From positions 62,001 to 126,000 of the forward strand of contig NZ_SZQA01000019.1 in assembly GCF_005233835.1 (NCBI RefSeq): a stretch of DNA of 64,000 bases, written 5' to 3'. This DNA comes from Herbidospora galbida (GTDB taxonomy: Bacteria > Actinomycetota > Actinomycetes > Streptosporangiales > Streptosporangiaceae). Positions 10,222 through 25,895 of the stretch are shown here, one piece after another (positions within the stretch are counted from its first letter, which is position 1; each line of letters starts with the position of its first letter). The translations under genes and the position numbers were made by a program. The notes below the pieces were generated by a model. It did no database searches and had not been told where the DNA came from. It saw nothing but the letters and a program-made list of their open reading frames with translations.

Positions 10222-11637
10222 TCAGCCCAGCGTGGCGAGGACGAGCTGGGGCGCGACCGAGAAGCCCACCGCCACCGCCGTGGCCACCCCGACGGCGATC
10301 CAGGCCGGCCCGGACCCGGCGCGCCGGGTGGCGTCGGCGGGGGTGAACAGGCGGGCCGTCCAGGCGATGTAGTAGTAGAGCCCGATCACCGTGTTGACGG
10401 CCATCACCACCGCGAGCCAGCCGAGCCCGCCCGCGACGACCTCGCGGAACACCACGACCTTGGCGAACAGCCCGGCGAGGCCCGGGGGCAGCCCGGCCAG
10501 GCAGATCAGCGCGAACGCCAGCGCCAGCCCGGCGACCGGCCGGGCGGAGACCAGGCCCCGGTAGCCGTCGAGCGTGTCGTGGGGCACGGCCATCACCACG
10601 GCGAAGGCGGTCAGGTTCATGGCGGCGTAGAAGACCAGGTAGGCGGTGGCGGCCTGGGCGTCGGTGGTGGCGATGGGGGCCAGGACGTATCCCGACTGGG
10701 CCACCGACGACCACGCCAGCAGCCTGACCGGATGGGTCTGCCGGAGCGCCAGCACGTTGCCGACGGTCATGGTCAGCGCGGCCAGCACCGCCACGATCGG
10801 CGTCCAGGTGGCCGACTCGCCCGGCAGGGCCTGGGTGAGGACGAGGATGAGCCCGGCGAACCCGGCCGCCTTCGACACGACCGACAGCAGGGCCGCCACC
10901 GGGATCGGCGCGCCCTGGTAGACGTCGGCGGCCCAGAAGTGGAACGGCACGGCGGCGATCTTGAACCCGAACCCGGCCACGACCATGACGGCCCCGACCG
11001 CCACGACGGGCCCGGCCCCGGGGCGTTCGGGCTGCGCCAGCGCCGCCGCGATCGCGTCGAGGTGGACGGCGCCGGTGATGCCGTAGAGAAGACTGATCCC
11101 GAACAGCATCACGGCCGTGGAGACGACGGAGACGACGAACAGCTTGAGCGCCGCCTCGGCGCCGCGTCCGTCGTAGCGGCGCAGCGCGGTCAGCGCGAAG
11201 ACCGGCAGCGAGACGAGTTCGAGCGCGACGACCAGCATGATCAGGTCGCGTGAGGCGGGCAGGGTGACCGCTCCGGCCAGCGCCGCGAGCAGCAGGAAAT
11301 ACCACTCCCCGACGGGGATGTCGCCCTCGGCGAGCTGCCCCATCGACAGCAGGACCACGACGGCGCCGGCCCCGAGGGCCAGCCCGGCGAACACGACCGT
11401 GGTGGCGTCGACGACGTAAGAGCACCCGACCGACGGCACGCAGAACGTCTCCCGGACGCCCCGCTGGGCCACCACCACGGCGAACGCCGCCGCCAGCGCG
11501 GCCAGGGTGAGGCAACCGAGCGCGGTCCGGACCCCTGGCCGGGCGGGCAGGAAGGCCTCGAGCAGCAGGACGAGCCCGGCGGCCAGCGCCAGGATCAGGG
11601 GCGCGGCGATCGCCCAGTAGTCGATCGACTGGATCAC
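10222..11637 (-). CDS. nuoN: NADH-quinone oxidoreductase subunit N paralogue
   Basis: A 471-residue polytopic membrane protein of the proton-pumping antiporter-like family. Typical stretches are DLIMLVVALELVSLPVFAL, the charged helix turn KIAAVPFHFWAADVYQGAP and VRLLAWSSVAQSGYVL. It starts at a GTG (11637) that overlaps the nuoM stop in a GTGA junction. It is the last nuo gene of this cluster. The set lacks nuoD, E, F and G, so its electron donor is probably not NADH. Confidence 0.95.
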   Translation of the reverse strand: MIQSIDYWAIAAPLILALAAGLVLLLEAFLPARPGVRTALGCLTLAALAAAFAVVVAQRGVRETFCVPSVGCSYVVDATTVVFAGLALGAGAVVVLLSMGQLAEGDIPVGEWYFLLLAALAGAVTLPASRDLIMLVVALELVSLPVFALTALRRYDGRGAEAALKLFVVSVVSTAVMLFGISLLYGITGAVHLDAIAAALAQPERPGAGPVVAVGAVMVVAGFGFKIAAVPFHFWAADVYQGAPIPVAALLSVVSKAAGFAGLILVLTQALPGESATWTPIVAVLAALTMTVGNVLALRQTHPVRLLAWSSVAQSGYVLAPIATTDAQAATAYLVFYAAMNLTAFAVVMAVPHDTLDGYRGLVSARPVAGLALAFALICLAGLPPGLAGLFAKVVVFREVVAGGLGWLAVVMAVNTVIGLYYYIAWTARLFTPADATRRAGSGPAWIAVGVATAVAVGFSVAPQLVLATLG

Positions 11638-13115
11638 GGCACCCCCAGAAGCGCGTGGACGGCGGGTGTGGTCAGCCTGAGCAGCGCGGACGGCCACAGG
11701 CCGAACACCAGGATGAGCACGACGAGCGGCACCCATGCGGTGAGCTCGACCCGGGTGGCGTCGTGGAGAGTGGGGCCCGGCCCGCCCCACGGCCCGTGGG
11801 TGAGCCGCGACAGCATGACCAGGAAGTAGGCCGCCGTCAGCACCGCCCCGAGCCCGCCGATCACCATGAACGTGACGAACAGCCCCCGGGGCAGCCCGGC
11901 GGCCGGTTCGTAGGCGCCCTGGAGGGCGAGCATCTCGCCCCAGAACCCCGCGAGGCCGGGCAGCCCGAGCGACGCGACGCAGGCGAAGGTCAGCAGCGAC
12001 CCGACATAGGGCAGCCGCCCGAGCAGCCCCGACCCCAGCTGATCGAGGTCGGACGTGCCGTGCCGCTCCTTCAACGCCCCGACCAGGAAGAACAGCAGGC
12101 CGGTGATCAGCCCGTGGGCGACGTTCCCGAAGAGGGCGGCGTTGATCCCGACCGGCGTGAGGGTCGCGAACCCGAGCAGCACGAACCCCATGTGGCCCAC
12201 GGACGAATAGGCGATCAGCCGTTTCAGGTCGCGCTGCGCCAGGCAGGCCAGCGCGCCGTAGACGATGCCGACGACGGCCAGCGCCCCCAGCCACGGCGCG
12301 ACGGCCGCGGCCCCCTCGGGCAGGATCGGGATGGCCACCCGCGCGAACCCGTAGGTGCCCATCTTCAGCAGCACCCCCGCAAGCAGCACCGATCCCACGG
12401 TCGGGGCCTCGGTGTGCGCGTCGGGCAGCCAGGTGTGCAGCGGCCACATCGGCGTCTTGACGGCCAGCCCGAGCCCGATGGCCACGAACGCGAGGATCTG
12501 CGCCGTCCGGCTCATCGGATGCTCGGCCGCCAGCCGGACCATGTCGAGGGTGCCGGTCTGCGCCCAGACGTAGAGCAGCCCGACCAGCAGCACCGCCGAC
12601 CCGAGCAGCGTGTAGAGGATGAACTTGTACGCCGCCCGCCGCCGCCCCTCGCCACCCCAGACCGCGATGACGAAGTACATGGGGATCAGCACGACCTCGA
12701 AGAACACGAAGAACAGCAGCAGGTCGAGCGCGAGGAAGGTCCCGATCATGCCGAGTTCGAGCACCAGCAGCGCGAAGACGAGCTCCCTGACCCGTGGCGG
12801 CCGGTGCCCGGCCAGGTAGACGAGGCACAGAAGGGTCAGCAGCGCGGTCAGCACGACGAGCGGCAGCGAGATCCCGTCGATTCCCACGTGGAACCGCACC
12901 CCGAGCCAGGGGATCCAGGCCAGGTCGACGGTCCCCTGCACGCGCCCGGCGGCGGAGTAGTCGAACGCGGACGCCACCGCGACGGCGACCGCGAACACCA
13001 CCCCGGAGACCGCCAGCCCGAACCGCACGGCCACGGCGCCCAGCGGCCCGGGAACGAGCAGCGCGGCGGCCCCCAGCAGCGGCAGGACGAGCAGCACGAC
13101 CAGCAACACGTTCAC
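11634..13115 (-). CDS. nuoM: NADH-quinone oxidoreductase subunit M paralogue
   Basis: A 493-residue polytopic proton-pumping subunit. Characteristic segments include IAVWGGEGRRRAAYKFILYT, the lysine helix [20 protein letters not shown] and RDLKRLIAYSSVGHMGFVL. The start is a GTG at 13115, overlapped by the stop of the small upstream ORF (GTGA). Translation is probably coupled through the whole L-M-N chain. Confidence 0.96.
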   Translation of the reverse strand: MNVLLVVLLVLPLLGAAALLVPGPLGAVAVRFGLAVSGVVFAVAVAVASAFDYSAAGRVQGTVDLAWIPWLGVRFHVGIDGISLPLVVLTALLTLLCLVYLAGHRPPRVRELVFALLVLELGMIGTFLALDLLLFFVFFEVVLIPMYFVIAVWGGEGRRRAAYKFILYTLLGSAVLLVGLLYVWAQTGTLDMVRLAAEHPMSRTAQILAFVAIGLGLAVKTPMWPLHTWLPDAHTEAPTVGSVLLAGVLLKMGTYGFARVAIPILPEGAAAVAPWLGALAVVGIVYGALACLAQRDLKRLIAYSSVGHMGFVLLGFATLTPVGINAALFGNVAHGLITGLLFFLVGALKERHGTSDLDQLGSGLLGRLPYVGSLLTFACVASLGLPGLAGFWGEMLALQGAYEPAAGLPRGLFVTFMVIGGLGAVLTAAYFLVMLSRLTHGPWGGPGPTLHDATRVELTAWVPLVVLILVFGLWPSALLRLTTPAVHALLGVP

Positions 13116-13276
13116 GGCCCCACCACCCCGTCAGAGGAGCCGGGCGCAGCCCTGTCCAGGCCCACCCTCACGGACGCGGCCGTCGTCCGGCTCATCCCGG
13201 CAGCGCACCGGCGAGCACGCCCGTCATCCGCAAGTGCCCCGGAGACCACTGCGACCCCGGCCGTCGTCGCGCTCAT
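13112..13276 (-). CDS. 54-residue coupled ORF between nuoL and nuoM
   Basis: This ORF has no recognisable domain. Its ATG overlaps the nuoL stop (ATGA at 13276-13273) and its TGA overlaps the nuoM start (GTGA at 13115-13112), so it fills the L-M gap exactly. The peptide starts [19 protein letters not shown] and later repeats the theme as GMSRTTAASVRVG. Its middle is a degenerate copy of the 3' end of nuoL: 19 bases at 13208-13226 are identical to 13313-13331. It may be a duplication relic that keeps translation flowing from nuoL to nuoM, or a tiny accessory peptide. It is not notably hydrophobic. Confidence 0.5.
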   Translation of the reverse strand: MSATTAGVAVVSGALADDGRARRCAAGMSRTTAASVRVGLDRAAPGSSDGVVGP

Positions 13277-13331
13277 CCCAGCACCACCGCCCCGACCGCG
13301 ATCAGCAGCACCCCGGCGAGCACGCCCGTCA
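13178..13331. repeat. Partial tandem duplication of the nuoL 3' end
   Basis: The decamer GGCCGTCGTC occurs at 13178-13187 and 13259-13268, each followed by a similar CTCATCCC sequence. The 19-mer at 13208-13226 recurs at 13313-13331. The offsets are 81 and 105 bases, which fits a duplicated segment with a 24-base length difference. Confidence 0.7.
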
Positions 13332-15099
13332 CGTAGAGCTGGGCGTTGCCGTTCTGCAGGTGGCGGACCAGCCCCGACAGCCCGACCGTGGCCCGCCCGG
13401 TCGACCGCACCGCGCCGTCGACCACGTGGTCGTCGGCTCGGACCACCCCGCGCGCCAGCGCGAGCACCGGCCGGACGAACACGGCCGCGTAGAGCCGGTC
13501 GACGTAGAAGACCTGCTCGCACGGATCGCGGAAGGCCCCCAGCAGCCGGGCCGGGTCGCGTTCGGGCGCGCCGCGCCAGATCACGTAGACGAACGCCGCT
13601 CCGAGCAGCGCCACGACCAGCGCGGTCACCGCCGGGGCGAGGTGGAACTCACCGGCGTCGGTGAAGCCGAGGAGCAGGGCCGGGACGGCCAGGACGCCCA
13701 TCGGCCACAGCATCGACAGCGGGGCCTCCCGGCCGTCGAAGACGTGGGCGGTGCCGGGGGCGGGTTCGGGGAGCGCCTGGATCTTGCCGGTGCCGAAGAA
13801 GGTCATCAGCCACGCCCGGGTCGCGTAGGCGCCGGTCACGCCGACGGTCAGCAGGGCCGAACCGTAGAGGAGGAGCTGGATCGGGCTCGACGAGCGCTCC
13901 AGGCCGTAGAGAATCGCGTCTTTGCTGAAGAAGCCGCTGGCCGGGGGCAGGCCGATCAGGGCGGCGTAGCCGATGGTCATGGTCCAGAACGTGACCGGCG
14001 TCGACCGGCGCAGGCCGCCCATGTGGCCGAGCAGGTTGGAGCCGACGTGGTGGATGACCGCGCCGGCGCAGAGGAACAGCAGGGCCTTGAAGGCGCCGTG
14101 GGTGACCAGGTGGAAGACGGCCGCGTCGCGGGCCCCGCCGGCGAGGGCGGCGGCCATGTAGGCGAGCTGGCTGATCGTCGAGTAGGCCAGCACGCGTTTC
14201 AGGTCGTTCTGCGCGAAGGCGGCCAGGGCCGCGCCGAGCATGCCGATCGCGGCGGCGACGCCGAGCACGTCGAGGGTGGGCTGCGGGAACAGCACGTAGA
14301 GGCGGGCCACCACGAAGATGCCGGCCGCCACCATCGTCGCGGCGTGGATCAGGGCGCTGATCGGGGTCGGGCCGGCCATCGCGTCGGGGAGCCACGTGTG
14401 CAGCGGGACCTGCGCGCTCTTGCCGGCCACCCCCGCGAGGAGCAGCAGCGTGGCCAGGACCAGCGTCGAGTCGGGGATGTCGGCGGCCATGATGTCGGCG
14501 ATGCGGAAGGAGCCGGCCGCGAAGCCCAGGACGAAGATGCCGAACAGGAAGCCGACGTCACCCAGGCGGGTCACCAGGAAGGCCTTGATCGCGGCCCGCG
14601 AGTTGGCCCGCTCCTCCCACCAGTGGCCCACCAGGAGGTAGGAGCACAGGCCCATGATCTCCCAGCCGACGTACAGGACCAGGAGGTCGGCCGCGAACAC
14701 GACCAGCAGCATCGCGCTGGTGAACAGGCTGATGAAGGCGCTGAAGGAGGGATAGCGGGACTCGCCCCGCATGTATCCGACCGAGTAGACCTGCACCGCC
14801 AGCGCCACCACGCCGACGAGCATCGCCGTCAGCACCGACAGTTCCGCGACCTCCAGCCCGACGGTGATCGCGATCCCGCCGGTGTCGATCTTGGTCAGCA
14901 CGCTGGTCGACGGCGTGTCCTCCCAGGCCAGCCAGCCGATGAGGGCCGTCGACAGGGCGGTCGGCACGACCCCGAACCAGGCCGCGCGTTTGTTGGCGAC
15001 CAGGTCTTCGGCGGGGCTTCGGCCGTGGGGGTAGCGGGACAGCAGCAGGCCCAGCACGGCTCCCGCGAACGGCAGGACCACCACGAGGGACGCGATCAC
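13273..15099 (-). CDS. nuoL: NADH-quinone oxidoreductase subunit L paralogue
   Basis: A 608-residue subunit, the largest antiporter-like membrane protein of complex I. Typical motifs are [41 protein letters not shown] and [15 protein letters not shown], followed by [16 protein letters not shown] and the long C-terminal lateral helix region. The GTG at 15099 overlaps the nuoK stop. At the other end the ATG of a 54-residue ORF overlaps its stop. Confidence 0.97.
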
Positions 15100-15404
15100 G
15101 GCTCCCCCAGTTCGCGCAGTCGGTCGAGTTCGATGGCCTTGCGGGTGCGGAAGACGGCCAGCACGATGGCCAGCCCGATCCCGACCTCGGCGGCGGCGAT
15201 GACGATCACGAACAGGGTCAGCACCTGACCCGAGTGGAGCACGTCGCGCAGCCAGACGTCGAAGGCGACCAGGTTCAGGTTGACCGCGTTGAGCATGAGC
15301 TCGACCGACATCAACACGAGGATGGTGTTACGCCGGGCGAGGACGCCGTACACGCCGATGGAGAAGAGCAGCGCGGCCACGACGGCGGGATAGACGACGT
15401 GCAT
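15096..15404 (-). CDS. nuoK: NADH-quinone oxidoreductase subunit K paralogue
   Basis: A 102-residue protein with three membrane helices. [20 protein letters not shown] carries the conserved glutamate of the second helix ([13 protein letters not shown]), and [15 protein letters not shown] carries the third-helix glutamate. Start ATG at 15404 overlaps the nuoJ stop in TGATG. Confidence 0.96.
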
Positions 15405-15937
15405 CAGCGCCGCCCTTTGATGTCGGTGCGCGACAGCACGATCGCCCCGATGAGCGCGGCCAGCAACAGCACCGAGAGCGCCTCGAACGGCAGCACCCAG
15501 TTACGGAAGATGCTCGCGCCCAGCTCCTCGGCCGACCCGGCGCCCGGCCGCAGGTCGGCGTAGGCGTGCTGGAACCCGCCCACGACCACGCTGACCAGCA
15601 CCCCGGCGGTGGCGACGGCGACGACGGCCGCGACCACCCGGTTGCCCGAGTCGAGATCGTCGCTCCTGCCGATGGGCGCCCGGGTCAGCATGATCCCGAA
15701 CAGCAGCAGCACCACGACGGCGCCGACGTAGATCAGCACCTGCACCCAGGCGACGAACTCGGCCGTCAGCACGAGATAACACCCGGCGAGCGCCCCGAAG
15801 CACACCACCAGCCACAGCGCGGCGTGCACCAGCTGCCGGGTCGTCACCACCAGCAACGCCGACCCGACGGCCACCAGCCCGAGCAACAGGAAGACGACCT
15901 CAAGCACGGACGGCGGCCAGAAGCCGACGCCACTCAC
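15404..15937 (-). CDS. nuoJ: NADH-quinone oxidoreductase subunit J paralogue
   Basis: A 177-residue subunit with five membrane helices. The conserved block [19 protein letters not shown] and then [21 protein letters not shown] are diagnostic for NuoJ/ND6. A soluble loop of about 45 residues precedes the last helix. GTG start at 15937 overlaps the nuoI stop (GTGA). Confidence 0.95.
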
Positions 15938-16806
15938 GGCCCCTCCTCGTCAGGCCGCTCCCCGCCGCCGTCAGGCCGCTCGGGCAGCCGGCCCGGCGGC
16001 CGGATCGACCGCACATCACGGGGGGCCCGGGGCTTCGCAGGAGGTTCCTCGTCAGCCGGAGCCGGCGTCTCCTCACCGGGCGTCCGGTCAGGCAACCGGC
16101 CCGGCGGCCGGATCGAGCGCACATCACGCGCCGGACGCGGCTTGGCCTCGCCCGAGCTGCTCGATTCGTCACCGGCACCCTGATCGGGCAGCCGGCCCGG
16201 GGGCCGGATCGCGCGGACGTCGCGGGCGGGGCGCGGTTTGGCCTCGCCGGGACCCTCCGTGTCAGCCGGAGCGGGCTTGGCCGCGCCGCCGGTGCTCGGG
16301 CCTCGCGCCGGGCGCTTGCTCGCCGTCACTTCCTTGGGCGGTTCGGCGTTGGCCTCGTGGCGCGGGGGCGCCGGGACGCTGGAGACCCACTCGCCCAGGC
16401 GGTCCTTCTCGTGGAGGAGGTTGCGGATGTCGCCCTCGGCGTATTCGAACTCCGGCGCCCAGAAGAGCGCGTCGAACGGGCAGACCTCGATGCAGATCCC
16501 GCAGTACATGCACAGCGAGAAGTCGATGGCGAAGCGGTCGAGCACGTTGCGTTGCCGGGGACGGCCGCCCTCGGGGGCGGGCAGCGTCTCCTTGTGGGAG
16601 TCGATGTAGATGCACCAGTCGGGGCACTCTCGTGCGCAGAGCATGCATGACGTGCAGTTCTCCTCGACCAGCGCGATCACGCCGCGAGATCGGGGCGGCA
16701 GGTCGGGCTTGACCTCCGGGTACTGCTGGGTCACCGAGCGACTGAGCATGTGTCGCAGCGTTACGGCCAAGCCCTTGGCCAGGCCCGTTCCTGGTATGCG
16801 CGCCAC
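15934..16806 (-). CDS. nuoI: NuoI-like 2[4Fe-4S] ferredoxin subunit with a repeated Arg/Pro tail
   Basis: A 290-residue protein. Residues 1-150 are a normal NuoI with two 4Fe-4S motifs: Cys51, 54, 57, 61 and Cys99, 102, 105, 109. Bacterial NuoI proteins are usually about 140-220 residues. Here an extra tail of about 140 residues is rich in Pro, Arg, Glu and Ala and carries three copies of a 21-residue unit (189-209, 221-241, 257-277) built on [14 protein letters not shown]. The tail looks disordered and basic and could dock a soluble donor such as ferredoxin, which is speculation. The GTG at 16806 follows GGGGATGATG. This begins the nuoI-N operon, separated from nuoA-H by two opposite-strand genes. 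Confidence 0.93.
15976..16242 (-). repeat. Three 63-base coding repeats in the nuoI tail
   Basis: Copies at 16180-16242, 16084-16146 and 15976-16038 encode variants of [19 protein letters not shown]. Copies 1 and 2 are almost identical in protein sequence; copy 3 differs mainly at the start of the unit. Spacers are acidic and Ser/Pro-rich. Confidence 0.9.
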
Positions 16807-16893
16807 GATCCAACATCATCCCCTAGAACAGGCCACTCGTGAATGTGACGACCCGGCCCTATCGGTTTTCTCCAGGTCGAGACAGAAAGTCCG

Positions 16894-16899
16894 TATCCT
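16894..16899 (+). promoter_or_regulatory. Candidate -10 box (TATCCT), leaderless
   Basis: TATCCT ends six bases before the ATG at 16906 and there is no ribosome binding site, as expected for a leaderless mRNA. The next gene has the same arrangement. Confidence 0.55.
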
Positions 16900-16905
16900 T
16901 CGCAT

Positions 16906-17526
16906 ATGGACCAGGTGCCGCGGTCGGCGGCTCGCGGCTTTCTGTGGGCGGTGGCGCCCCTGGTCACCATTGGTTTCGCGACGCCGTTCACGTTCGGGTG
17001 GGCCGGTTTCCAGCGGCGAAGCTGGTGGCTGGTGCTCTCCTCGGTCCTGTACGCCGCCTCGATGGCCGCCTGGCTCCTCATCGGCAACGCTACGGGAACC
17101 CCGTCAGGGATCTGGGCCGGGGTCATGGTGCTCGGCCTCTTCGTGTCGTGGCTCGGCGGAACGCTCCACGCCTTCGCGGTCAGGAGGAGGGTGTTCGGCC
17201 CGGCCTGCCCGTTCGAGCGGGCGCGGCTGCTGCGCAAGGAGGCCCGCGCGCTGGCCACCCGGAACCCCGGCCGGGCGCGGCGGCTGGGGGTCGGCAGGCC
17301 CGACCTGGGGCGGCGGTTCGACGACGGCGGGCTGGTCGACATGAACCACGCGCCCGCGATCGTGCTCCGGACCGTTCCCGGGATGACGCCCGACCTGGTC
17401 GAACGGGTGCTGGAGGCGCGCAGCCGGACGGTCACCTTCACCTCGGCGGAGGACCTGTCCGACCTGCTCGACCTGCCGGTCACGAGCCGGGATGAGCTCT
17501 CCGAATACGGCGTCTATCTCCCGTAA
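16906..17526 (+). CDS. Membrane protein with C-terminal helix-hairpin-helix (ComEA-like) domain
   Basis: A 206-residue protein. Residues 10-90 hold about three membrane segments, and the same region opens the following kinase gene (compare VAPLVTIGFATPFTFGWAG with IVPLFTCGFGTPFAIGYAA). A basic linker leads to residues 144-206, which start VDMNHAPAIVLRTVPGMTPD and continue with VERVLEARSR and a second hairpin half. This is the pattern of ComEA-type HhH modules, which bind DNA or proteins. A cytoplasmic HhH at the membrane next to a kinase inside a nuo locus is unusual. Role unknown. Confidence 0.7.
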   Translation: MDQVPRSAARGFLWAVAPLVTIGFATPFTFGWAGFQRRSWWLVLSSVLYAASMAAWLLIGNATGTPSGIWAGVMVLGLFVSWLGGTLHAFAVRRRVFGPACPFERARLLRKEARALATRNPGRARRLGVGRPDLGRRFDDGGLVDMNHAPAIVLRTVPGMTPDLVERVLEARSRTVTFTSAEDLSDLLDLPVTSRDELSEYGVYLP

Positions 17527-17552
17527 TAGCGGCGCTTGGCGTCGGAAGTACG

Positions 17553-17558
17553 TATTGT
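17553..17558 (+). promoter_or_regulatory. Candidate -10 box (TATTGT), leaderless
   Basis: TATTGT ends seven bases before the GTG at 17566 with no Shine-Dalgarno sequence. This favours the GTG over an upstream TTG (17536) as the true start and implies that the kinase has its own promoter just after the HhH gene. Confidence 0.55.
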
Positions 17559-17565
17559 TCGCGCT

Positions 17566-18900
17566 GTGCATCCGTACTGGCAGCCGCCGCAGCAGCCCGC
17601 GTCGAACACGGCGGTGTCCTGGCTGTGGGCGATTGTTCCGCTCTTCACCTGCGGGTTCGGCACGCCGTTCGCCATCGGCTATGCGGCGGCGAAGAAGCGC
17701 AGCCCCTGGCTGATCGTCGCCACCGGGGTCTACGCCCTGAACTTCGTCGTCTTCATCATCGCCCTCGCCAGCTACGAGGACGTCAACACGTGGCCCGTGT
17801 GGCTCGACACGACGACGACGATCGGCCTGTGCCTGAACTGGTTCGGCGGGCTCGCGCACACCCTGATCATCCGGCGGGGGGTGTTCGAGCCGGGGTACGC
17901 CTGGCAGCCCGTCCAGCAGCAGCCCGTCCACCACCAGCAGCAGCAGCCGCAGTACCAGCCGCAGCGGCCGATGCCCATGCCGCCGCCGAGGGCCTACCCG
18001 CAGCAGCAGCCGCAGCCCCCGCGGCCGACCCACGTCCCGCAGCCGCACCTGAGCACCCCGCCGCCGCCCCGGCCGTTCACGCAGCCGACCCACCCCTCGA
18101 CGATGGGGGTGCAGCCGCGCAGCCAGGGGCCGCAGTGGCTGGGGCCCTACCGGGTGATCGGGGACCTCGGGCAGGGCGGGCAGGGCGCCGTCTACCTGGG
18201 GGTCGACCAGCGCGGGCAGAAGGTCGCCATCAAGGTGCTGCACGCCCACATCGCCAAGGACCGGGACGCCCAGGCGCGGTTCCTGCGTGAGGTCGACGCG
18301 GCCCGCCGGGTGGCGCCGTTCTCCACGGCCCGGGTGCTCGACGTGAACATCACCGACGACCTGGCCTACGTCGTGTCCGAGTACGTCGACGGGGTGTCGC
18401 TGGAGCAGCTCGTCAAGGACAAGGGCCCCCGCACCGAAGACGGGCTGACCCGGCTCGCCCTCGCGACGGCCGGCGCGCTGGCCGCGATCCACAAGGCGGG
18501 GATCGTGCACCGCGACTTCAAGCCGAGCAACGTGCTGATCGGCTCCGACGGCCCGCGCGTGATCGACTTCGGCATCGCCAAGGCCCTCGACCAGGTCAAC
18601 GCGACCGCGAGCCAGGTCATGGGGACCCCGGCCTACATGTCGCCGGAGCAGGTCGGCGGCCGGCCGGTCGGGCCGGAGACCGACATCTTCGCGTGGGCGG
18701 CCACGATGGTGTTCGCGGCGTCGGGCAAGAACGCGTTCGGGCAGGACACGATCCCGGCCATCCTCAACCGGATCATCAACCACCAGCCCGACCTGACCGA
18801 ACTGCCGGTGTCGTTACGGGCCCTGGCGGCGTCGTGCCTGGACAAGGACCCGGCGAACCGGCCCACCGCCTCGGACATCATGCTGCGGATCGTGCACTAG
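17566..18900 (+). CDS. Membrane-anchored Ser/Thr protein kinase
   Basis: A 444-residue protein. An N-terminal three-segment membrane module (about 18-104) is shared with the preceding gene. A Gln/Pro-rich linker (110-190) leads to a C-terminal Hanks-type kinase domain (191-444). Glycine loop LGQGGQGAVY, catalytic Lys223 (VAIK), HRDFKPSN (315-322), DFG (334-336) and GTPAYMSPE (353-361) are all present, so it should be active. The topology is reversed relative to PknB-type kinases, whose membrane helix follows the kinase domain. Position between nuoH and nuoI suggests a link to respiration, which is inference. The stop overlaps convergent nuoH by four bases. Confidence 0.92.
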   Translation: MHPYWQPPQQPASNTAVSWLWAIVPLFTCGFGTPFAIGYAAAKKRSPWLIVATGVYALNFVVFIIALASYEDVNTWPVWLDTTTTIGLCLNWFGGLAHTLIIRRGVFEPGYAWQPVQQQPVHHQQQQPQYQPQRPMPMPPPRAYPQQQPQPPRPTHVPQPHLSTPPPPRPFTQPTHPSTMGVQPRSQGPQWLGPYRVIGDLGQGGQGAVYLGVDQRGQKVAIKVLHAHIAKDRDAQARFLREVDAARRVAPFSTARVLDVNITDDLAYVVSEYVDGVSLEQLVKDKGPRTEDGLTRLALATAGALAAIHKAGIVHRDFKPSNVLIGSDGPRVIDFGIAKALDQVNATASQVMGTPAYMSPEQVGGRPVGPETDIFAWAATMVFAASGKNAFGQDTIPAILNRIINHQPDLTELPVSLRALAASCLDKDPANRPTASDIMLRIVH

Positions 18901-19844
18901 AGGACCTTCACGACCCCGGTCAGCGCGAGCTGCACCAGCGCCAGCGGCACCAGGCCGACCCAGGCGAGCCGCTGGAGCTGGTCTTCCCGCATCCGGGGGA
19001 AGCTGACCCTGACCCAGATGACCACGAAGGCCAGGGCGAAGATCTTGATGAGGGTCCAGACCGGGCCGGGCAGCAGCGGGCCCTGCCAGCCGCCCAGGTA
19101 GAGGACCGTCGTGAGCGCCGACAGGACCACGATCCCGGCGTACTCGGTCAGCATGAACAGGGCGAACCGGATGCCGGTGTATTCGGTCATCGGGCCCATG
19201 ATGATCTCCGACTCGGCGATCGGCATGTCGAACGGCGGACGGCGGAGCTCGGCCAGCCCGGCGACGAAGAACACCACCGCGCCGATCGCCTGCCAGGCCA
19301 GCCACCAGGGCTCCCAGGCCTCGACGATGCCCTGGAGCGAGAGGGTCCCGGCCGCCATGGCCACGCTGGAGGCGGCCAGAACCAGGGGCAGCTCGTACGA
19401 CATCAGCTGCGCCGCCGAGCGCATCCCGCCCAGCACGGAGTACTTGTTGCCGGACGACCACCCGGCCATGATCGACCCGAGCACGCCGACGCCCATCACG
19501 GCCAGCACGAAGAAGATCCCGGCGTCGAGGTCGACCCCGAGCAGGCCGGGCCCCACCGGGATCACGACCATGACGACCAGGTAGGGCACCAGCGCGACCG
19601 CGGGGGCCAGCTTGAAGACGGCCCGGTCGGCCGCCGCCGGGATGACGTCCTCCTTCTGCATGAACTTGACGCCGTCGGCGATGAGCTGGGCCCAGCCGTG
19701 GAAGCCGCCGGCGTACATGGGGCCGAGGCGCGACTGCATGTGGGCCATGGCCTTGTGTTCCAGCTGGCCGACGATCAGCGGCAGCAGCAGGAACGCCCCG
19801 ACGATCACGATCACCCTGATCGCGACTTCCAGCAGCTCAGGCAT
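18897..19844 (-). CDS. nuoH: NADH-quinone oxidoreductase subunit H paralogue
   Basis: A 315-residue quinone-site membrane subunit. The block [18 protein letters not shown], the loop [18 protein letters not shown] and [16 protein letters not shown] are diagnostic for NuoH. Its ATG overlaps the nuoC stop by eight bases. In standard complex I operons nuoD, E, F and G sit between nuoC and nuoH; here nothing does. Confidence 0.96.
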
Positions 19845-20358
19845 TGCGCCCCCAGTCGGTCGGCACGCCGGGCGGCAGCATCTTGCGGCGCGAGGGCGCG
19901 CTCGACTCGCCCGGCTCCTTCGCGCCGGGCCAGGTCTTGGCCACCCGGGCGGCCAGCACGAAGGACTTGCGCAGCGGGTGGCCCTCGAACCCGTCGGGGA
20001 GCAGCAGGGGCTTCAGGTCGGGGTGGCCGTCGAAGACCACGCCGAACATCTCGAAGGTCTCCCGCTCGTGCCAGTCGGCCCCCCGGAACACGCCCACCGC
20101 CGACGGCAGCACGGGGTCGGCCAGCGGCACGTGGGTGCGTACCAGCAGGCGGCGGTGGTTCTCCTGGTCGGCGAGGTGGGCGACGACGGCGAAGCCCTGG
20201 GGCGGGTCGTCGACGGCGGTGAGCCAGTCGAAGAAGGAGTAGCCCCGGTCGCGGCAGGAGGTGAGCACCTCGATCCAGTCGGCGGGGCCGACGTCGGCGG
20301 TCGTCTCGCCGAAGGACTCGGAGACCACGACCCGGGAGCCGAACTCGTCCAAGATCAT
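19837..20358 (-). CDS. nuoC: NADH-quinone oxidoreductase subunit C paralogue
   Basis: A 173-residue peripheral-arm subunit. The signature is [21 protein letters not shown] followed by [12 protein letters not shown]. It is not fused to NuoD: the protein ends about 45 residues after that motif. Its ATG at 20358 overlaps the nuoB stop (ATGA). Confidence 0.93.
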
Positions 20359-20840
20359 GTCAGCGACTCCCCCGCGATCTTCTCCTGGAGCTTCATGATC
20401 CCGTGGAGCAGCGCCTCGGGGCGGGGCGGGCAGCCGGGCACGTAGACGTCGACCGGGATGATCTGGTCGACGCCCTTGGTGACGCAGTAGGAGTCCCAGT
20501 AGGGGCCGCCGGTGTTGGAGCAGGCCCCGAACGAGATGACGTACTTCGGGTCGGGCATCTGCTCGTAGAGGCGCAGGACGGCCGGGGCCATCTTGTCGGT
20601 GACCGTGCCCGAGACGATCATCAGGTCGGCCTGGCGGGGGCCGTTGGCGAACGGGATGACCCCGAACCGGATGAAGTCGTGGCGGCTCATAGAGGTGGCG
20701 ATGAACTCGATCGCGCAGCAGGCCAGGCCGAAGTTGAAGACCCACAGCGAGTAGCGGCGACCCCAGTTCAGCACGAACTTCATCGGCTTGGGCGCCAGCC
20801 TCGCGGCGGGGCCGAACGTCGGAGTGGGCAGATCAACCAT
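20355..20840 (-). CDS. nuoB: NADH-quinone oxidoreductase subunit B paralogue
   Basis: A 161-residue subunit that holds the N2 iron-sulfur cluster. All four ligands are present: Cys41, Cys42 (LACCAIEF), Cys107 ([18 protein letters not shown]) and Cys137 ([12 protein letters not shown]). This indicates a functional electron path to quinone. Three bases separate it from nuoA. Confidence 0.96.
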
Positions 20841-20843
20841 GGG

Positions 20844-21233
20844 TCACGTCCAAGTGAGCACGCGCTTGCGCCACGCGTAGACGATGCCGAGCGCGATGAA
20901 CGCCAGGAACACGAACATCTCGACGAGAGTGGTCATGCCGTAGCCCGGGGCGGCGAACACGGTCGCCCAGGGGAACAGGAACACGGCGTCGACGGCGAAG
21001 ACGACATAAAGATACGTGAAGACGTAGTACCTGACCTGCGACTGGGCCCAGCCGTCGCCGACGGGGTCGACGCCGCACTCGTAGGTGGTCAGCTTGGCCT
21101 CGGTGGGCCGGTCGGGGCGCAGCAGCCGGTTGATCAGCAGGGCGCCGGCGAAGATCGCCGCCCCGATGGCCAGCAGCACGGCGACCACCGCGTACGACCC
21201 GAAGTATCCGTCCACCCCTTGATAATCGCGCAC
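20844..21233 (-). CDS. nuoA: NADH-quinone oxidoreductase subunit A paralogue
   Basis: A 129-residue membrane protein with three helices. TTYECGVDPVGDGWAQSQVR and YYVFTYLYVVFAVDAVFLFPW match the conserved loop and second helix of NuoA. A GTG at 21233 is used; the GTG at 21215 is an alternative start. This is the first gene of nuoA-B-C-H and is read divergently from the deacetylase gene. Confidence 0.94.
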   Translation of the reverse strand: MRDYQGVDGYFGSYAVVAVLLAIGAAIFAGALLINRLLRPDRPTEAKLTTYECGVDPVGDGWAQSQVRYYVFTYLYVVFAVDAVFLFPWATVFAAPGYGMTTLVEMFVFLAFIALGIVYAWRKRVLTWT

Positions 21234-21299
21234 CTGAACGCCGAACCAAAGAAGCTCACGGACACTGCCAAGTCACAGCAAACCACGCCCAAGCGCCAA

Positions 21300-21305
21300 T
21301 AATCT
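21300..21305 (+). promoter_or_regulatory. Candidate -10 box (TAATCT), leaderless
   Basis: TAATCT ends seven bases before the ATG at 21313 with no ribosome binding site between. This supports a leaderless transcript starting at the deacetylase start codon. Confidence 0.55.
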
Positions 21306-21312
21306 GACATTT

Positions 21313-22758
21313 ATGCCCGTTTTGCGATTCACCGGAGGAATCGCGATGCTCGCCGCCGCGTGTTGCGCGTGCGGCGTCGCCTTCAACTCCCCGGCAGACG
21401 AGGTGCCGCCGTCGTCCGAGCCGACGGTGCTGACCTTCGTCGACCCTGCCGTCGTCCCCGGCCTGCAGGTGCAGACCATCATCAAAAAGACGGGCAAGGC
21501 CAACTCTTACCTGACCTACCCTCAGATACCCGGCGCGACGCCGCTCAGCGAGCGGATGCGGGCCGAGCTCGTCGCCGAGGCCAAGGCCTTCAACGAGAAG
21601 AACGCCAAGGGCAAGGCCACCCTCCCCAAGTCCGAGATCAACGTCGACTGGCAGCTCACCGCCGTGTCGCCGAAGGTCACCGGCGTCCGCCTCCGCACGG
21701 GCCGCTTCGAGGGCGAGTCGTGGATCAACTCGACCCGGACCCTCTGGTACGACGGCGCCCGCGTCGTCACCTCCGACCTGCTGGTCAAGAACCTGAACGA
21801 CCTCGCGCGGGTGGTCGGGACCCGGCTGGCCGACGACACCGACGTCCACCTCGGGGCGATCAAGCCCGACCGGGCGCTGTTCGACTCGCTCGACTTCAAC
21901 TCGCGGGGCGACCTGGTGGTGGAGTTCGACGACTACGAGATCGGGCCGGGCGCGATGGGCCGGGTGGCCACGGCGATCCCCCGCCAGGAGGCCGCGCCGC
22001 TGCTGTCGGACTTCGGCAAGGCCGCCCAGCAGGCCGTCGAGTCGGCCCGGCCGACCACCCCGCCCGAGCTGCGGAACCCACCGGAGGCCACGGCGCCGGC
22101 GGTGCCGGGGAAGGTCGACTGCCGGGTCGCGCGCTGCGTCGCCCTGACGTTCGACGAGGGGCCGGGGCCGTACACGGACCGGATCCTGACCGCGCTCGGC
22201 ACCACGCGCGCCACCTTCTTCCTCACCGGCACCAACGCGGCCGCCCGCCCCGACCTGCTGCGCCGGATGGCCCGCGACGGCCACCTGGTCGGCAACCACG
22301 GCTGGTCGCACCGCGACCTGACGACACTCCCGGACAACCGCATATACGAGCAGCTGGCCCGCACCCAGGACGTCATCGCCCAGTCGACCGGCAGCCTCCC
22401 GGCCCTGATGCGGCCCCCCTACGGCGCCTCCAACCCCGACGTCGCCAAGATCGCCGGCGAATTGAAGCTCAGCCTGGTCACCTGGGACGTCGACGCCGGC
22501 GACGACGGCGACGCCACAGCGCAGGAGATCTGCAGGCGGGTCACCTCGGCCGTGAAGCCCGGCTCGATCGTGCTCCTGCACGACCTGGGCCCCGCCACCC
22601 CCGAGGCCATCCCGCTGATCCTCAAGGCACTCGAGGACCGCGGATACTCTTTTGTCACCGTTCCCGAGTTGTACGGAACACGCCCGATGCAGCCAGGCCG
22701 AACCTACGAATCGGCCGTGGACGTCGCCGTCTCGCGCTATGGGCGGCCGCTACCGTGA
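21313..22758 (+). CDS. Exported polysaccharide deacetylase with RsiV-like N-terminal domain
   Basis: A 481-residue protein. A short hydrophobic N-terminus with cysteines at 17, 18 and 20 suggests export, perhaps as a lipoprotein, although the lipobox is weak. Residues of about 50-240 resemble the DUF3298/RsiV-type domain. The C-terminal NodB domain has LTFDEGPGPYT, VGNHGWSHRDLT, MRPPYGASN, TWDVDAGD and VLLHDLGP, the five motifs of carbohydrate esterase family 4. The first motif has Glu where the metal-binding Asp of TFDDGP is expected. Likely substrates are peptidoglycan or surface glycan N-acetyl groups. Confidence 0.87.
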   Translation: MPVLRFTGGIAMLAAACCACGVAFNSPADEVPPSSEPTVLTFVDPAVVPGLQVQTIIKKTGKANSYLTYPQIPGATPLSERMRAELVAEAKAFNEKNAKGKATLPKSEINVDWQLTAVSPKVTGVRLRTGRFEGESWINSTRTLWYDGARVVTSDLLVKNLNDLARVVGTRLADDTDVHLGAIKPDRALFDSLDFNSRGDLVVEFDDYEIGPGAMGRVATAIPRQEAAPLLSDFGKAAQQAVESARPTTPPELRNPPEATAPAVPGKVDCRVARCVALTFDEGPGPYTDRILTALGTTRATFFLTGTNAAARPDLLRRMARDGHLVGNHGWSHRDLTTLPDNRIYEQLARTQDVIAQSTGSLPALMRPPYGASNPDVAKIAGELKLSLVTWDVDAGDDGDATAQEICRRVTSAVKPGSIVLLHDLGPATPEAIPLILKALEDRGYSFVTVPELYGTRPMQPGRTYESAVDVAVSRYGRPLP

Positions 22759-22772
22759 ATCCAGCGGGGACA

Positions 22773-22778
22773 TATAGT
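22773..22778 (+). promoter_or_regulatory. Candidate -10 box (TATAGT) of the kor leader transcript
   Basis: TATAGT ends eight bases before the GTG of the leader peptide. Transcription would begin at or one to two bases before that GTG, so the leader peptide is predicted to be translated from a leaderless mRNA. Confidence 0.55.
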
Positions 22779-22786
22779 TAGGCACC

Positions 22787-22870
22787 GTGACCCGAATCAT
22801 CCTCTTCGCTCGCCGGCACGTCGACCTGTGCCGCATCGCGTCGGGACTGTGTCAAGCCCTGCCCGACTGA
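22787..22870 (+). CDS. Cysteine-type leader peptide upstream of korAB
   Basis: A 27-residue ORF, GTG start, reading TRIILFARRHVDLCRIASGLC and ending QALPD. RRHVDLxRxxSxxC is the pattern of the short actinobacterial leader peptides often found before sulfur- and cysteine-related operons. In mycobacteria, leaderless Cys-containing peptides of this sort act as cysteine-responsive attenuators. Two Cys codons lie seven residues apart. The peptide ends 138 bases before korA, whose products carry an iron-sulfur cluster, so cysteine control would make sense. The regulatory role is inference. Confidence 0.75.
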   Translation: MTRIILFARRHVDLCRIASGLCQALPD

Positions 22871-23008
22871 CGCCCCATCCCCCCACACGAGCGACAAAGG
22901 TCACAACCCACGCGCATTCGTATAAGCGCGACAAAGGGATCTAGCATTGAATTCACACACGTGCCACGAGCAGACCGCGCCTTGGTCTGTCGAGGAGGAC
23001 TGAGCGCT
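22871..23008 (+). promoter_or_regulatory. Putative attenuator region between leader peptide and korA
   Basis: This C-rich, then AT-richer, untranslated stretch starts with CCCCATCCCCCCACACG, which could suit Rho loading if leader translation ends normally. I see no strong intrinsic hairpin. A GAGGAGG ribosome binding site for korA lies at 22992-22998. Confidence 0.4.
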
Positions 23009-24856
23009 GTGACCAAGCAGGTGCAGCAACTCGACCGCGTGATCATCCGGTTCGCGGGTGACTCCGGCGACGGCATGCAGCTCACCGGCGATCGATTCAC
23101 CGCGGAGACGGCGTCGTTCGGCAACGACCTGTCGACGCTGCCCAACTTCCCGGCCGAGATCCGCGCCCCGGCAGGCACCCTCCCCGGAGTGTCGAGCTTC
23201 CAGCTCCACTTCGCCGACCACGACATCCTCACCCCGGGTGACGCGCCCAACGTCCTCGTCGCGATGAACCCGGCCGCCCTCAAGGCGAACCTGTCCGACC
23301 TCCCGCGCGGCGCCGACATCATCGCCAACGCCGACGAGTTCACCAAGCGGAACCTGCAGAAGGTCGGCTACGACGTCAACCCGCTCGAAGACGAGAGCCT
23401 GGCCGAGTGGCGGCTTCACTCGGTGCCGCTGACCTCGCTGACGGTCAAGGCGCTCGAAGAGTTCGACATCTCGAAGAAGGACGCCGAGCGCGCGAAGAAC
23501 ATGTTCGCCCTCGGCCTGCTGTCGTGGCTCTACGGCCGCCCGGTCGAGGCGACGATCAAGTTCATCGAGACCAAGTTCGCCAAGAAGCCCGCGATCGCCA
23601 AGTCCAACGTGGCCGCCTTCAACGCCGGCTACAACTACGGCGAGACGACCGAGGCGTTCTCGGTCTCGTACGAGATCAAGCCCGCCCCCCTGAGCGCCGG
23701 CGTCTACCGGAACATCTCCGGCAACCAGGCGCTGGCCCTCGGGCTGGTCGCGGCGTCGGTCCAGTCGAAGCTGCCGCTGTTCCTGGGCTCCTACCCGATC
23801 ACCCCGGCCTCCGACATCCTCCACGAGCTGTCGAAGCACAAGCGGTTCGGCATCCGCACCTTCCAGGCCGAAGACGAGATCGCCGGCGTCGGCGCGGCGC
23901 TGGGCGCGGCGTTCGGCGGCGCGCTCGGCGTGACCACCACATCGGGCCCGGGTGTGGCGCTGAAGGCCGAGACGGTGGGCCTCGCGGTCACCACCGAGCT
24001 GCCGCTGATCGTGGTCGACGTGCAGCGCGCCGGCCCCTCCACCGGCATGCCGACCAAGACCGAGCAGACCGACCTGCTGATGGCGCTGTTCGGCCGCAAC
24101 GGCGAGTCGCCGGTGCCGGTGATCGCCCCGGCGACGCCGAGCGACTGCTTCGACGCCGCCGTCGAGGCCGCCCGGATCGCGATCAAATACCGCACCCCGG
24201 TGATGCTGCTCTCCGACGGCTACCTCGCCAACGGCTCCGAGCCGTGGAAGGTCCCGTCGCAGGCCGAGCTGCCCGACATCTCGGTGCCCTACACGACCGA
24301 GCCCAACGGCGACGACGGCACCACCTTCCTGCCGTTCAAGCGCGACGCCGAGACGCTGGCCCGTCCGTGGGCGATCCCCGGCACTCCGGGGCTCGAACAC
24401 CGCATCGGCGGCATCGAGAAGGCCGACGGCACCGGCAACATCTCCTACGACCCGAGCAACCACGACCTGATGGTCCGGCTGCGCCAAGCCAAGATCGACG
24501 GCATCGACGTGCCCGATCTCGAGGTCGACGACCCCGACGGCGACGCCCGGGTGCTCGTGCTCGGCTGGGGTTCGACCTACGGCCCGATCGCCGCGGCGGC
24601 CCGCCGGGTGCGCCGGGGCGGCGGCAAGGTCGCGCAGGCCCACCTGCGTCACCTCAACCCGTTCCCGAAGAACATCGGCGAGGTCCTGAAGTCCTACGAC
24701 AAGGTCCTGCTGCCCGAGATCAACCTGGGCCAGCTCGCGCTGCTGCTGCGGGCCAAGTTCCTGGTCGACATCATCAGCTACAACCGCGTGCGCGGACTTC
24801 CGTTCAAGGCCGAGGAACTGGCCGGAGTGATCCAGGAAGTGATCGACAGTGAGTGA
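23009..24856 (+). CDS. korA: 2-oxoacid:ferredoxin oxidoreductase, alpha (fused gamma-alpha) subunit
   Basis: A 615-residue subunit. The N-terminal gamma-type domain begins RVIIRFAGDSGDGMQLTGDRF, and the pyrimidine-binding alpha domain begins near SAGVYRNISGNQALALGLVA, with GSYPITPASDILHEL and GVTTTSGPGVALKAE. With KorB it oxidatively decarboxylates a 2-oxoacid (most likely 2-oxoglutarate) and reduces ferredoxin. The GTG at 23009 is used because GAGGAGG lies ten bases upstream; the longer frame from 22961 adds an unrelated N-terminus. It overlaps korB by eight bases. Confidence 0.94.
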   Translation: MTKQVQQLDRVIIRFAGDSGDGMQLTGDRFTAETASFGNDLSTLPNFPAEIRAPAGTLPGVSSFQLHFADHDILTPGDAPNVLVAMNPAALKANLSDLPRGADIIANADEFTKRNLQKVGYDVNPLEDESLAEWRLHSVPLTSLTVKALEEFDISKKDAERAKNMFALGLLSWLYGRPVEATIKFIETKFAKKPAIAKSNVAAFNAGYNYGETTEAFSVSYEIKPAPLSAGVYRNISGNQALALGLVAASVQSKLPLFLGSYPITPASDILHELSKHKRFGIRTFQAEDEIAGVGAALGAAFGGALGVTTTSGPGVALKAETVGLAVTTELPLIVVDVQRAGPSTGMPTKTEQTDLLMALFGRNGESPVPVIAPATPSDCFDAAVEAARIAIKYRTPVMLLSDGYLANGSEPWKVPSQAELPDISVPYTTEPNGDDGTTFLPFKRDAETLARPWAIPGTPGLEHRIGGIEKADGTGNISYDPSNHDLMVRLRQAKIDGIDVPDLEVDDPDGDARVLVLGWGSTYGPIAAAARRVRRGGGKVAQAHLRHLNPFPKNIGEVLKSYDKVLLPEINLGQLALLLRAKFLVDIISYNRVRGLPFKAEELAGVIQEVIDSE

Positions 24857-25895
24857 ATCCCTGAACGGCAAGGGCCTGGCCCTGGTGCCGAAGGCCGAGG
24901 GCAAGCAGACCCTGAAGGACTTCAAGTCCGACCAGGAGGTGCGCTGGTGCCCCGGGTGCGGTGACTACGCGATCCTGGCGGCCGTGCAGTCGTTCATGCC
25001 CGAGCTGGGGATCAAGCGCGAGAACACCGTGTTCGTGTCGGGCATCGGCTGCTCCTCGCGGTTCCCCTACTACATGAACACCTACGGGTTCCACTCGATC
25101 CACGGCCGCGCCCCGGCCATCGCGACCGGTCTGGCGGCCTCCCGCCCCGACCTGTCGGTGTGGGTGATCACCGGTGACGGCGACGCCCTGTCGATCGGCG
25201 GCAACCACCTGATCCACGCGCTGCGCCGCAACGTCAACCTGAACATCCTGCTGTTCAACAACCGGATCTACGGTCTGACCAAGGGCCAGTACTCGCCCAC
25301 CTCCGAAGTCGGCAAGATCACCAAGTCGACCCCGATGGGCTCGCTCGACAAGCCGTTCAACCCGATCTCGCTGGCCGTCGGCGCCGAGGCCGGGTTCGTC
25401 GCCCGGACCATCGACTCCGACCGCAAGCACCTGCACAGCGTGCTCCGCGAGGCCGCCGCCCACCGGGGCACCTCGCTGGTGGAGATCTACCAGAACTGCA
25501 ACATCTTCAACGACAACGCGTTCGAAGACCTGAAAGACCCCGAGAAGCGCGACGTGATCACGCTGCGCCTGGAGCACGGGCAGCCGATCGCCAACGCGAC
25601 CCAGGCGGTCAGGCTCGCCCCGACGGGTGGTCTCGAGGTCGTGGCGCGCGACTCGATCTCCCCGGAGGAGATCCTCGTCCACGACGTGCACAACCCCGAC
25701 CCGTCGCTCGCGTTCGCGCTGAGCCGGCTCGACGAGCCGGCCTTCCAGCACGTGCCGATCGGCATCTTCCGGTCGGTCGACCGGCCCTCCTACGACCACC
25801 TGATGAGCGAGCAGCTCGAGATGGCCGTGGCCCAGCGGGGCCCCGGCGACCTCGACGAACTCCTCCAGGGCGGCGACACCTGGAAGATCAACTAA
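24849..25895 (+). CDS. korB: 2-oxoacid:ferredoxin oxidoreductase, beta subunit
   Basis: A 348-residue thiamine-diphosphate and 4Fe-4S subunit. RWCPGCGDYAILAAV and SGIGCSSRFPYYMNTYGFHS supply cluster cysteines, and VITGDGDALSIGGNHLIH with LLFNNRIYGLTKGQYSPTS is the thiamine diphosphate site. The YGLTKGQ form is common in 2-oxoglutarate enzymes. It is translationally coupled to korA. Reduced ferredoxin from this pair is a reasonable electron source for the NuoEFG-less complex encoded just upstream. Confidence 0.95.
   Translation: MSESLNGKGLALVPKAEGKQTLKDFKSDQEVRWCPGCGDYAILAAVQSFMPELGIKRENTVFVSGIGCSSRFPYYMNTYGFHSIHGRAPAIATGLAASRPDLSVWVITGDGDALSIGGNHLIHALRRNVNLNILLFNNRIYGLTKGQYSPTSEVGKITKSTPMGSLDKPFNPISLAVGAEAGFVARTIDSDRKHLHSVLREAAAHRGTSLVEIYQNCNIFNDNAFEDLKDPEKRDVITLRLEHGQPIANATQAVRLAPTGGLEVVARDSISPEEILVHDVHNPDPSLAFALSRLDEPAFQHVPIGIFRSVDRPSYDHLMSEQLEMAVAQRGPGDLDELLQGGDTWKIN

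Follow-up and report, generated by a model that had tools for sequence, protein, structure and literature searches.

A second nuo cluster with a detached nuoD in Herbidospora galbida: a putative complex I without NADH module, linked to KorAB

We analyzed a stretch of 64 000 nt of Herbidospora galbida DNA (contig NZ_SZQA01000019.1, positions 62,001 to 126,000; hereafter the window), which carries a second, partial nuo cluster (nuo2) close to korAB, the genes of a 2-oxoacid:acceptor oxidoreductase. Our findings make it rather probable that the ten nuo2 products, together with the product of an orphan nuoD located elsewhere in the genome (nuoD2, contig C32), form an 11-subunit complex I that has no NADH module, is fed by KorAB, reduces menaquinone and pumps protons. 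The subunit set, the cofactor ligands, the place and co-inheritance of nuoD2, the linkage to Kor and a clade of NuoD proteins with Trp at the quinone site can be read directly from the sequences; assembly into one complex, the donor, the acceptor and the pumping we infer from them. In the proposed path KorAB would oxidize a 2-oxoacid with coenzyme A, and its electrons would enter the two 4Fe-4S clusters of NuoI2, directly or via ferredoxin, pass to cluster N2 in NuoB2 and, at the NuoB/NuoD2/NuoH site, to menaquinone; proton pumping by the membrane subunits would go alongside.

The cluster runs along the minus strand from 21233 to 10222 in the order nuoA2-B2-C2-H2-I2-J2-K2-L2-M2-N2, with two plus-strand genes between nuoH2 and nuoI2 (Table 1). 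An earlier note on this DNA had counted ten nuo genes (A, B, C, H-N); every open reading frame is indeed intact and profile matches place all ten products in the expected Pfam or NCBIfam families. There is no nuoD, nuoE, nuoF or nuoG in the cluster, and nuoC2, which the note had described as running directly into nuoH, overlaps nuoH2 by 8 bp, so that no space is left for nuoD between them. NuoB2 retains the four N2 ligands (CC, GAC, PGCPP) and NuoI2 the eight cluster Cys, in agreement with the intact electron path and, given the missing NuoE, F and G, with the NADH-independent complex that the note had described. The cluster therefore differs from that of a canonical 14-subunit enzyme, and with D supplied by nuoD2 it has the subunits and cofactor ligands of an 11-subunit complex I. 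No extra electron-input subunit was found in the window cluster, NdhS-like proteins not having been searched for. The window subunits score far below the cut-offs of the Fpo models (FpoD 310 versus 600 bits; FpoL 292 versus 1050) and of the Ndh models.

Searching the genome for the 49-kDa family returned two proteins, NuoD1 and the orphan NuoD2. NuoD1 lies in a complete nuoA-N operon on contig C62, with F and G, and nuoD2 (C32:128333-129505, 391 aa) lies between folK/DUF3180 and a P450 gene. The absence of NuoD stated in the earlier note is thus correct for the cluster but not for the genome, where both the second nuoD and the full operon that it proposed to look for are present; NuoD comes from elsewhere, and the note's alternative of a complex without a 49-kDa subunit finds no support. 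The NuoD2 locus was fetched from 20 relatives, and in these nuoD2 is again away from nuo2, near folK and/or a gene for an S-adenosylmethionine-dependent methyltransferase. Across a sample of the phylum, 87 genomes have both NuoD2-type and NuoH2-type matches. In 62 of them, all outside the window's class, nuoD adjoins nuoH (Ilumatobacter, Candidatus Actinomarina and other Acidimicrobiia-like genomes are examples), and these other classes carry a complete separate nuoABCDHIJKLMN. In the remaining 25, comprising 15 of 15 from the window's class and 10 others, it is detached (for example in Streptomyces, Kitasatospora, Actinomadura, Micromonospora and Intrasporangiaceae), at a distance of 184-320 kb where it shares a contig with nuo2. 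From this difference between the classes it follows that the nuoD of nuo2 was relocated: nuo2 is a predicted 11-subunit complex I with a relocated nuoD that reached the folK locus by an old rearrangement and was not lost. The note had allowed that relatives might hold a nuoD which this strain had simply lost; relatives in other classes do have it in the cluster, but here it moved.

nuoD2 is inherited together with the cluster. Among 198 genomes of the class NuoC2 was found in 63, NuoD2 in all 63 of these and neither in 130 (Fisher value 3e-46, which ignores the relatedness of the genomes); in no family was a genome with NuoC2 and without NuoD2 seen, and NuoD2 occurs without an above-threshold NuoC2 in five genomes (G335, G356, G452, G478 and G487). 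All 42 class genomes bearing NuoH2 have NuoC2 and NuoD2. G061, a candidate for a genome without nuoD2, was rejected, as pieces of nuoD2 lie at contig ends; in G028, which is 77% complete, nuo2 is present and nuoD2 was not detected. In G060 nuoC2 and nuoD2 stand together on one contig (L180:2272-3892) and nuoB2 and nuoH2 are neighbours on another, which is a separate relocation event that moved nuoC and nuoD together. NuoD2 has no CxxC pair of the kind that binds nickel at the two ends of the corresponding subunit in group 4 NiFe hydrogenases, with GPQHPSTHG and GDIDK at those places. A missing MEALIHHFK segment was dropped as a peculiarity of NuoD2, since most NuoD of clusters without NADH module also miss it.

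Further insight into the unit came from 22 genomes that have no intact nuo2 membrane arm but carry nuoB, nuoC, nuoI and nuoD2. These are 21 genomes of the class sample with NuoD2 and NuoC2 and no NuoH2 match, and G023 from the sample of relatives; the NuoC2 locus was fetched for each. Three genomes that had first seemed to have NuoD2 alone (G023, G039 and G099) turned out to carry such reduced clusters. Except in G099, the fetched stretch of each locus has nuoB-nuoC-nuoI and lacks A, H and J-N of the nuo2 type (the G337 contig stops behind nuoC). korAB lies divergently beside the module in 14 loci and was not seen on the fetched stretches of the others, some of which are short. A whole-genome search found one full-length NuoH in each reduced genome, 38-45% identical and belonging to the canonical operon (nuo1) by location, and distant homologues in addition in G039 and G099. 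G099 keeps nuo2 A, B, C and I, has lost J-N and has a nuoH2 broken by internal deletions, three fused fragments (L185:10939-11286) between intact nuoC2 and nuoI2; this may be a halfway stage in losing the membrane arm.

The reduced modules are not dead: in four pairs, B, C, I and D have ratios of non-synonymous to synonymous change (pN/pS) of 0.12-0.54, compared with 0.07-0.24 for korA, so that the module genes are under purifying selection. NuoB C41, C42, C107 and C137 (the N2 ligands), the eight NuoI cluster Cys and NuoD R88, D90, W91 and H173 are each kept in at least 90% of the modules. Relaxed are the NuoI N-terminal segment, NuoB 44-74 and NuoD T148-E156, and three reduced genomes of family f90 have lost the quinone-ligand His (H42). 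It appears that the electron wire was preserved and that the surfaces facing the membrane arm and the quinone tunnel were freed. The NuoD2 of G023 and G039 (L025, L034) have an Ala-rich sequence in place of TP.FYAF.ERE and group together on the tree despite their different families. On the KorA tree there are up to 6 changes between the full and the reduced state (bootstrap range 4-6; the starred branches force at least 3), so that loss of the membrane arm recurred, for instance within genus g224, which is mixed (G377 full, G337 and G419 reduced). Recurrent loss of this kind, with the N6a-N6b-N2 wire kept, would mean that the complex I Q module is able to persist as a soluble enzyme.

The note had pointed to korAB, 1.7 kb from nuoA2, as a possible source of electrons, and both the distance and the plausibility of this donor are upheld. 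The korA product reaches 658 bits with OAFO_sf (cut-off 483), and with the gamma-alpha and beta subunits both present the pair belongs to the KorAB family; no ferredoxin-like delta subunit accompanies it in the window, and NuoI2 scores weakly with the KorD/PorD delta subunit models. Where the flank is on the contig, korAB lies within about 4 kb of the full nuo2 cluster in 17 of 18 cases. Because of this conserved adjacency, and above all because the redox subunits are kept with korAB after the other losses, Kor to NuoI to NuoB/NuoD2 would be the best path, and Kor together with NuoBCDI gives the impression of a single functional unit. By analogy with the Mycobacterium tuberculosis enzyme, 2-oxoglutarate may be the substrate (PMC2773412). 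Outside the Actinomycetota, a Balneolales metagenome-assembled genome (MAG; L178) has a korB homologue directly upstream of nuoA in a Tyr-type 11-subunit cluster, so that the Kor-nuo linkage extends beyond this phylum.

If instead the complex drew on the general ferredoxin or flavodoxin pool, korAB would be a mere neighbour. 11-subunit complexes may take several donors (PMC11238625), ferredoxin is the normal acceptor of KorAB, and Kor is not adjacent in other classes; the retention of korAB beside loci stripped to their redox subunits, on top of its place next to nearly all full clusters, nevertheless makes this reading rather unlikely. A more specific form of the proposed Kor-fed complex, which we put forward tentatively and at slightly less than an even chance, is that KorAB docks on NuoB-C-D-I as a dedicated relay. 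This relay would mostly sit on a proton-pumping arm, with the Trp-type site described below working without a proton-donating Tyr, and elsewhere would have turned into a soluble Kor-NuoBCDI enzyme that has given up membrane quinone. If true, the latter would be a case of the peripheral arm of complex I at work with no membrane arm at all.

The quinone head group is bound by a strictly conserved Tyr, Y87 in Thermus Nqo4 (PMC8119997). NuoD2 has Trp at this place (NRHDWL aligned with PRMDYL), and so have 93 of 146 aligned NuoD, the other 53 having Tyr, as well as 20 of 20 additional NuoD2 from reduced lineages. On a NuoD tree calculated with this column masked, the Trp rows fall on one side of one branch (76 rows, SH-like approximate likelihood ratio test 100; quick method), and all named Trp-type rows are Actinomycetota but for one. 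This exception (L110), a MAG labelled Acidobacteria, is nested within Acidimicrobiia and is probably mislabelled or a mixed bin. NuoD of Chloroflexota, Bacillota, Bacteroidota, Ignavibacteriota, Acidobacteriota and an archaeal MAG keep the Tyr. All NuoD2-type proteins examined thus have the Trp, and they make up one Actinomycetota clade. The PEAE-motif Glu of NuoH (Escherichia coli E216) is Ile in window NuoH2 and is replaced by Ile, Val, Ala or Phe in 43 of 43 aligned NuoH from Trp-type clusters, and 11 of 14 Tyr-type NuoH retain it. A conserved Arg of NuoB (bovine FRASPRQ) is missing as well, but this was dropped as a further quinone-site change, as NuoB1 of the same genome also has no Arg there. 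With the quinone-ligand His retained and the Tyr replaced by Trp, the complex would be a variant and not a standard member of the 11-subunit group. Yarrowia mutants at this Tyr reportedly retain little activity when the quinone analogue has a long tail and keep some with short quinones. The natural swap bears on the debate over whether quinone reduction requires the Tyr as a proton donor.

Could the Trp-type site leave quinone unreduced and pass electrons to some other acceptor, with the membrane arm, where present, driven by different means? Even the modules that have no membrane arm invariably keep the Trp, and the Glu loss in NuoH would fit as well. However, the quinone-ligand His and the cavity segment TP.FYAF.ERE are invariant in full complexes and are relaxed only after loss of the arm, which suggests a cavity in use and leaves a quinone-free site distinctly unlikely. 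Menaquinone, with proton pumping, would most likely be the acceptor in the full complexes.

About equally improbable is that nuo2 forms no complex of its own and that its subunits, above all NuoL2 and NuoM2, serve as alternative parts in canonical complex I, as put forward for Streptomyces on antisense RNA and expression data (PMC3765725, PMC8388888, PMC9239103). nuo1 and nuo2 do lie near each other in many genomes. Against such hybrids, nuo2 owns A, B, C, H and I in addition to NuoD2, its NuoH is only 41% identical to that of nuo1, the set stands complete and separate in other classes, and the redox subunits are inherited and reduced together with nuoD2 while nuo1 remains whole. Given this complete set, a hybrid is less likely for Streptomyces too. 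That nuo2 is a decaying relic, as the reduced clusters and the fragmented nuoH2 of G099 might suggest, is very improbable in view of the intact window cluster, NuoH2 identities of 96-99% within the genus, conservation of the set across the class, purifying selection on the reduced modules and expression of the operon in Streptomyces (PMC3765725).

Several points weigh against a Kor-fed, menaquinone-reducing 11-subunit complex. nuoD2 lies outside the nuo2 operon, with which it would have to be co-expressed; the replacement of Tyr by Trp and of Glu by Ile at the quinone site makes the identity of the acceptor uncertain; in other classes no kor was seen within 7 kb of nuoD; and to our knowledge mycobacteria such as M. 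tuberculosis have KorAB without nuo2. The study of the M. tuberculosis enzyme (KOR), which is likewise a korAB with fused gamma-alpha and beta and no delta subunit, did not identify its acceptor and suggested a membrane-associated partner (PMC2773412); in the present case nuo2/NuoBCDI is a candidate.

Streptomyces shares the partial second cluster without N-module genes, the nuoD2 elsewhere, already published as separate (PMC3765725, PMC8388888), and, in line with the note, the vicinity of kor. Its NuoD2 is about 80% and its NuoH2 71-73% identical to those of the window genome. The Streptomyces papers differ in that nuoC2 is not listed (one gives C, D and L as lacking), hybrid use is proposed, and the Trp site, the embedded nuoD of relatives and the reduced modules are not mentioned; the 2022 paper describes nuo2 as without NuoC, D, E, F, G and L and calls its function unclear (PMC9239103). 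The 11-subunit enzymes of Desulfitobacterium (PMC11238625), Bacillaceae and Chloroflexota also have nuoABCDHIJKLMN without E, F and G and a proposed donor in ferredoxin from a 2-oxoacid oxidoreductase. Their NuoD is Tyr-type, however, and encoded in the operon, whereas the Trp clade and the detached nuoD are Actinomycetota features. Fpo and the cyanobacterial and plastid NDH are likewise relatives of complex I that use other donors without NuoEFG, but the scores given above set the window apart from them. The detached-nuoD2 architecture is therefore known; the Trp clade, the reduced modules and the korAB beside them are apparently new, and the literature searched, which was covered in part, contained no mention of the Trp clade, the embedded nuoD in relatives or the reduced Kor-NuoBCI loci. 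Our reading joins two open questions, the acceptor of the actinobacterial KOR (PMC2773412) and the function of Streptomyces nuo2 (PMC9239103).

Table 1. Genes of the nuo2 and kor region (window positions)
Feature	Position	Strand	Family match
nuoN2	10222..11637	-	Pfam Proton_antipo_M 9e-59; NCBIfam NDH_I_N just below cut-off
nuoM2	11634..13115	-	NCBIfam NDH_I_M above cut-off
nuoL2	13273..15099	-	NCBIfam NDH_I_L above cut-off
nuoK2	15096..15404	-	Pfam Oxidored_q2 9e-29
nuoJ2	15404..15937	-	Pfam Oxidored_q3 4e-39
nuoI2, two 4Fe-4S clusters	15934..16806	-	Pfam Fer4 families
Helix-hairpin-helix (ComEA-like) gene between nuoH2 and nuoI2	16906..17526	+	Pfam HHH_3 just below cut-off
Ser/Thr protein kinase gene between nuoH2 and nuoI2	17536..18900	+	Pfam Pkinase 1e-44
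nuoH2	18897..19844	-	Pfam NADHdh 3e-103
nuoC2	19837..20358	-	Pfam Complex1_30kDa 5e-37
nuoB2, four N2 Cys ligands	20355..20840	-	NCBIfam nuoB_fam above cut-off
nuoA2	20844..21233	-	Pfam Oxidored_q4 2e-32
korA, fused gamma-alpha subunit of 2-oxoacid:acceptor oxidoreductase, proposed donor	22961..24856	+	NCBIfam OAFO_sf above cut-off
korB, beta subunit	24849..25895	+	Pfam TPP_enzyme_C 4e-30; NCBIfam PorB_KorB just below cut-off

The kinase and helix-hairpin-helix genes, which the earlier note did not mention, form an insertion (16906-18900) that splits the nuo2 operon and is found in some members of the family and not in others; the kinase gene is not part of the nuo2 complex. Between nuoA2 and korA (21313-22758) stands a gene for a polysaccharide deacetylase, an arrangement found in this genus and several family members. 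In four loci of other classes (L067, L070, L110 and L111) the L-M-N end of one nuo operon directly precedes nuoA2, which suggests an old nuo1-nuo2 tandem. The C-terminal third of NuoI2 is a long, low-complexity and disordered-looking tail with three copies of a 10-residue repeat. Its motif recurs at least once in several genera of the family, the tails being otherwise unalignable, and the tails of other classes bear a different repeated motif (QIDEEVY...EGKSERVARAKAKAA-like). Searching the genome for VR.IRPPG gave 5 DNA matches, 3 of them inside nuoI2.

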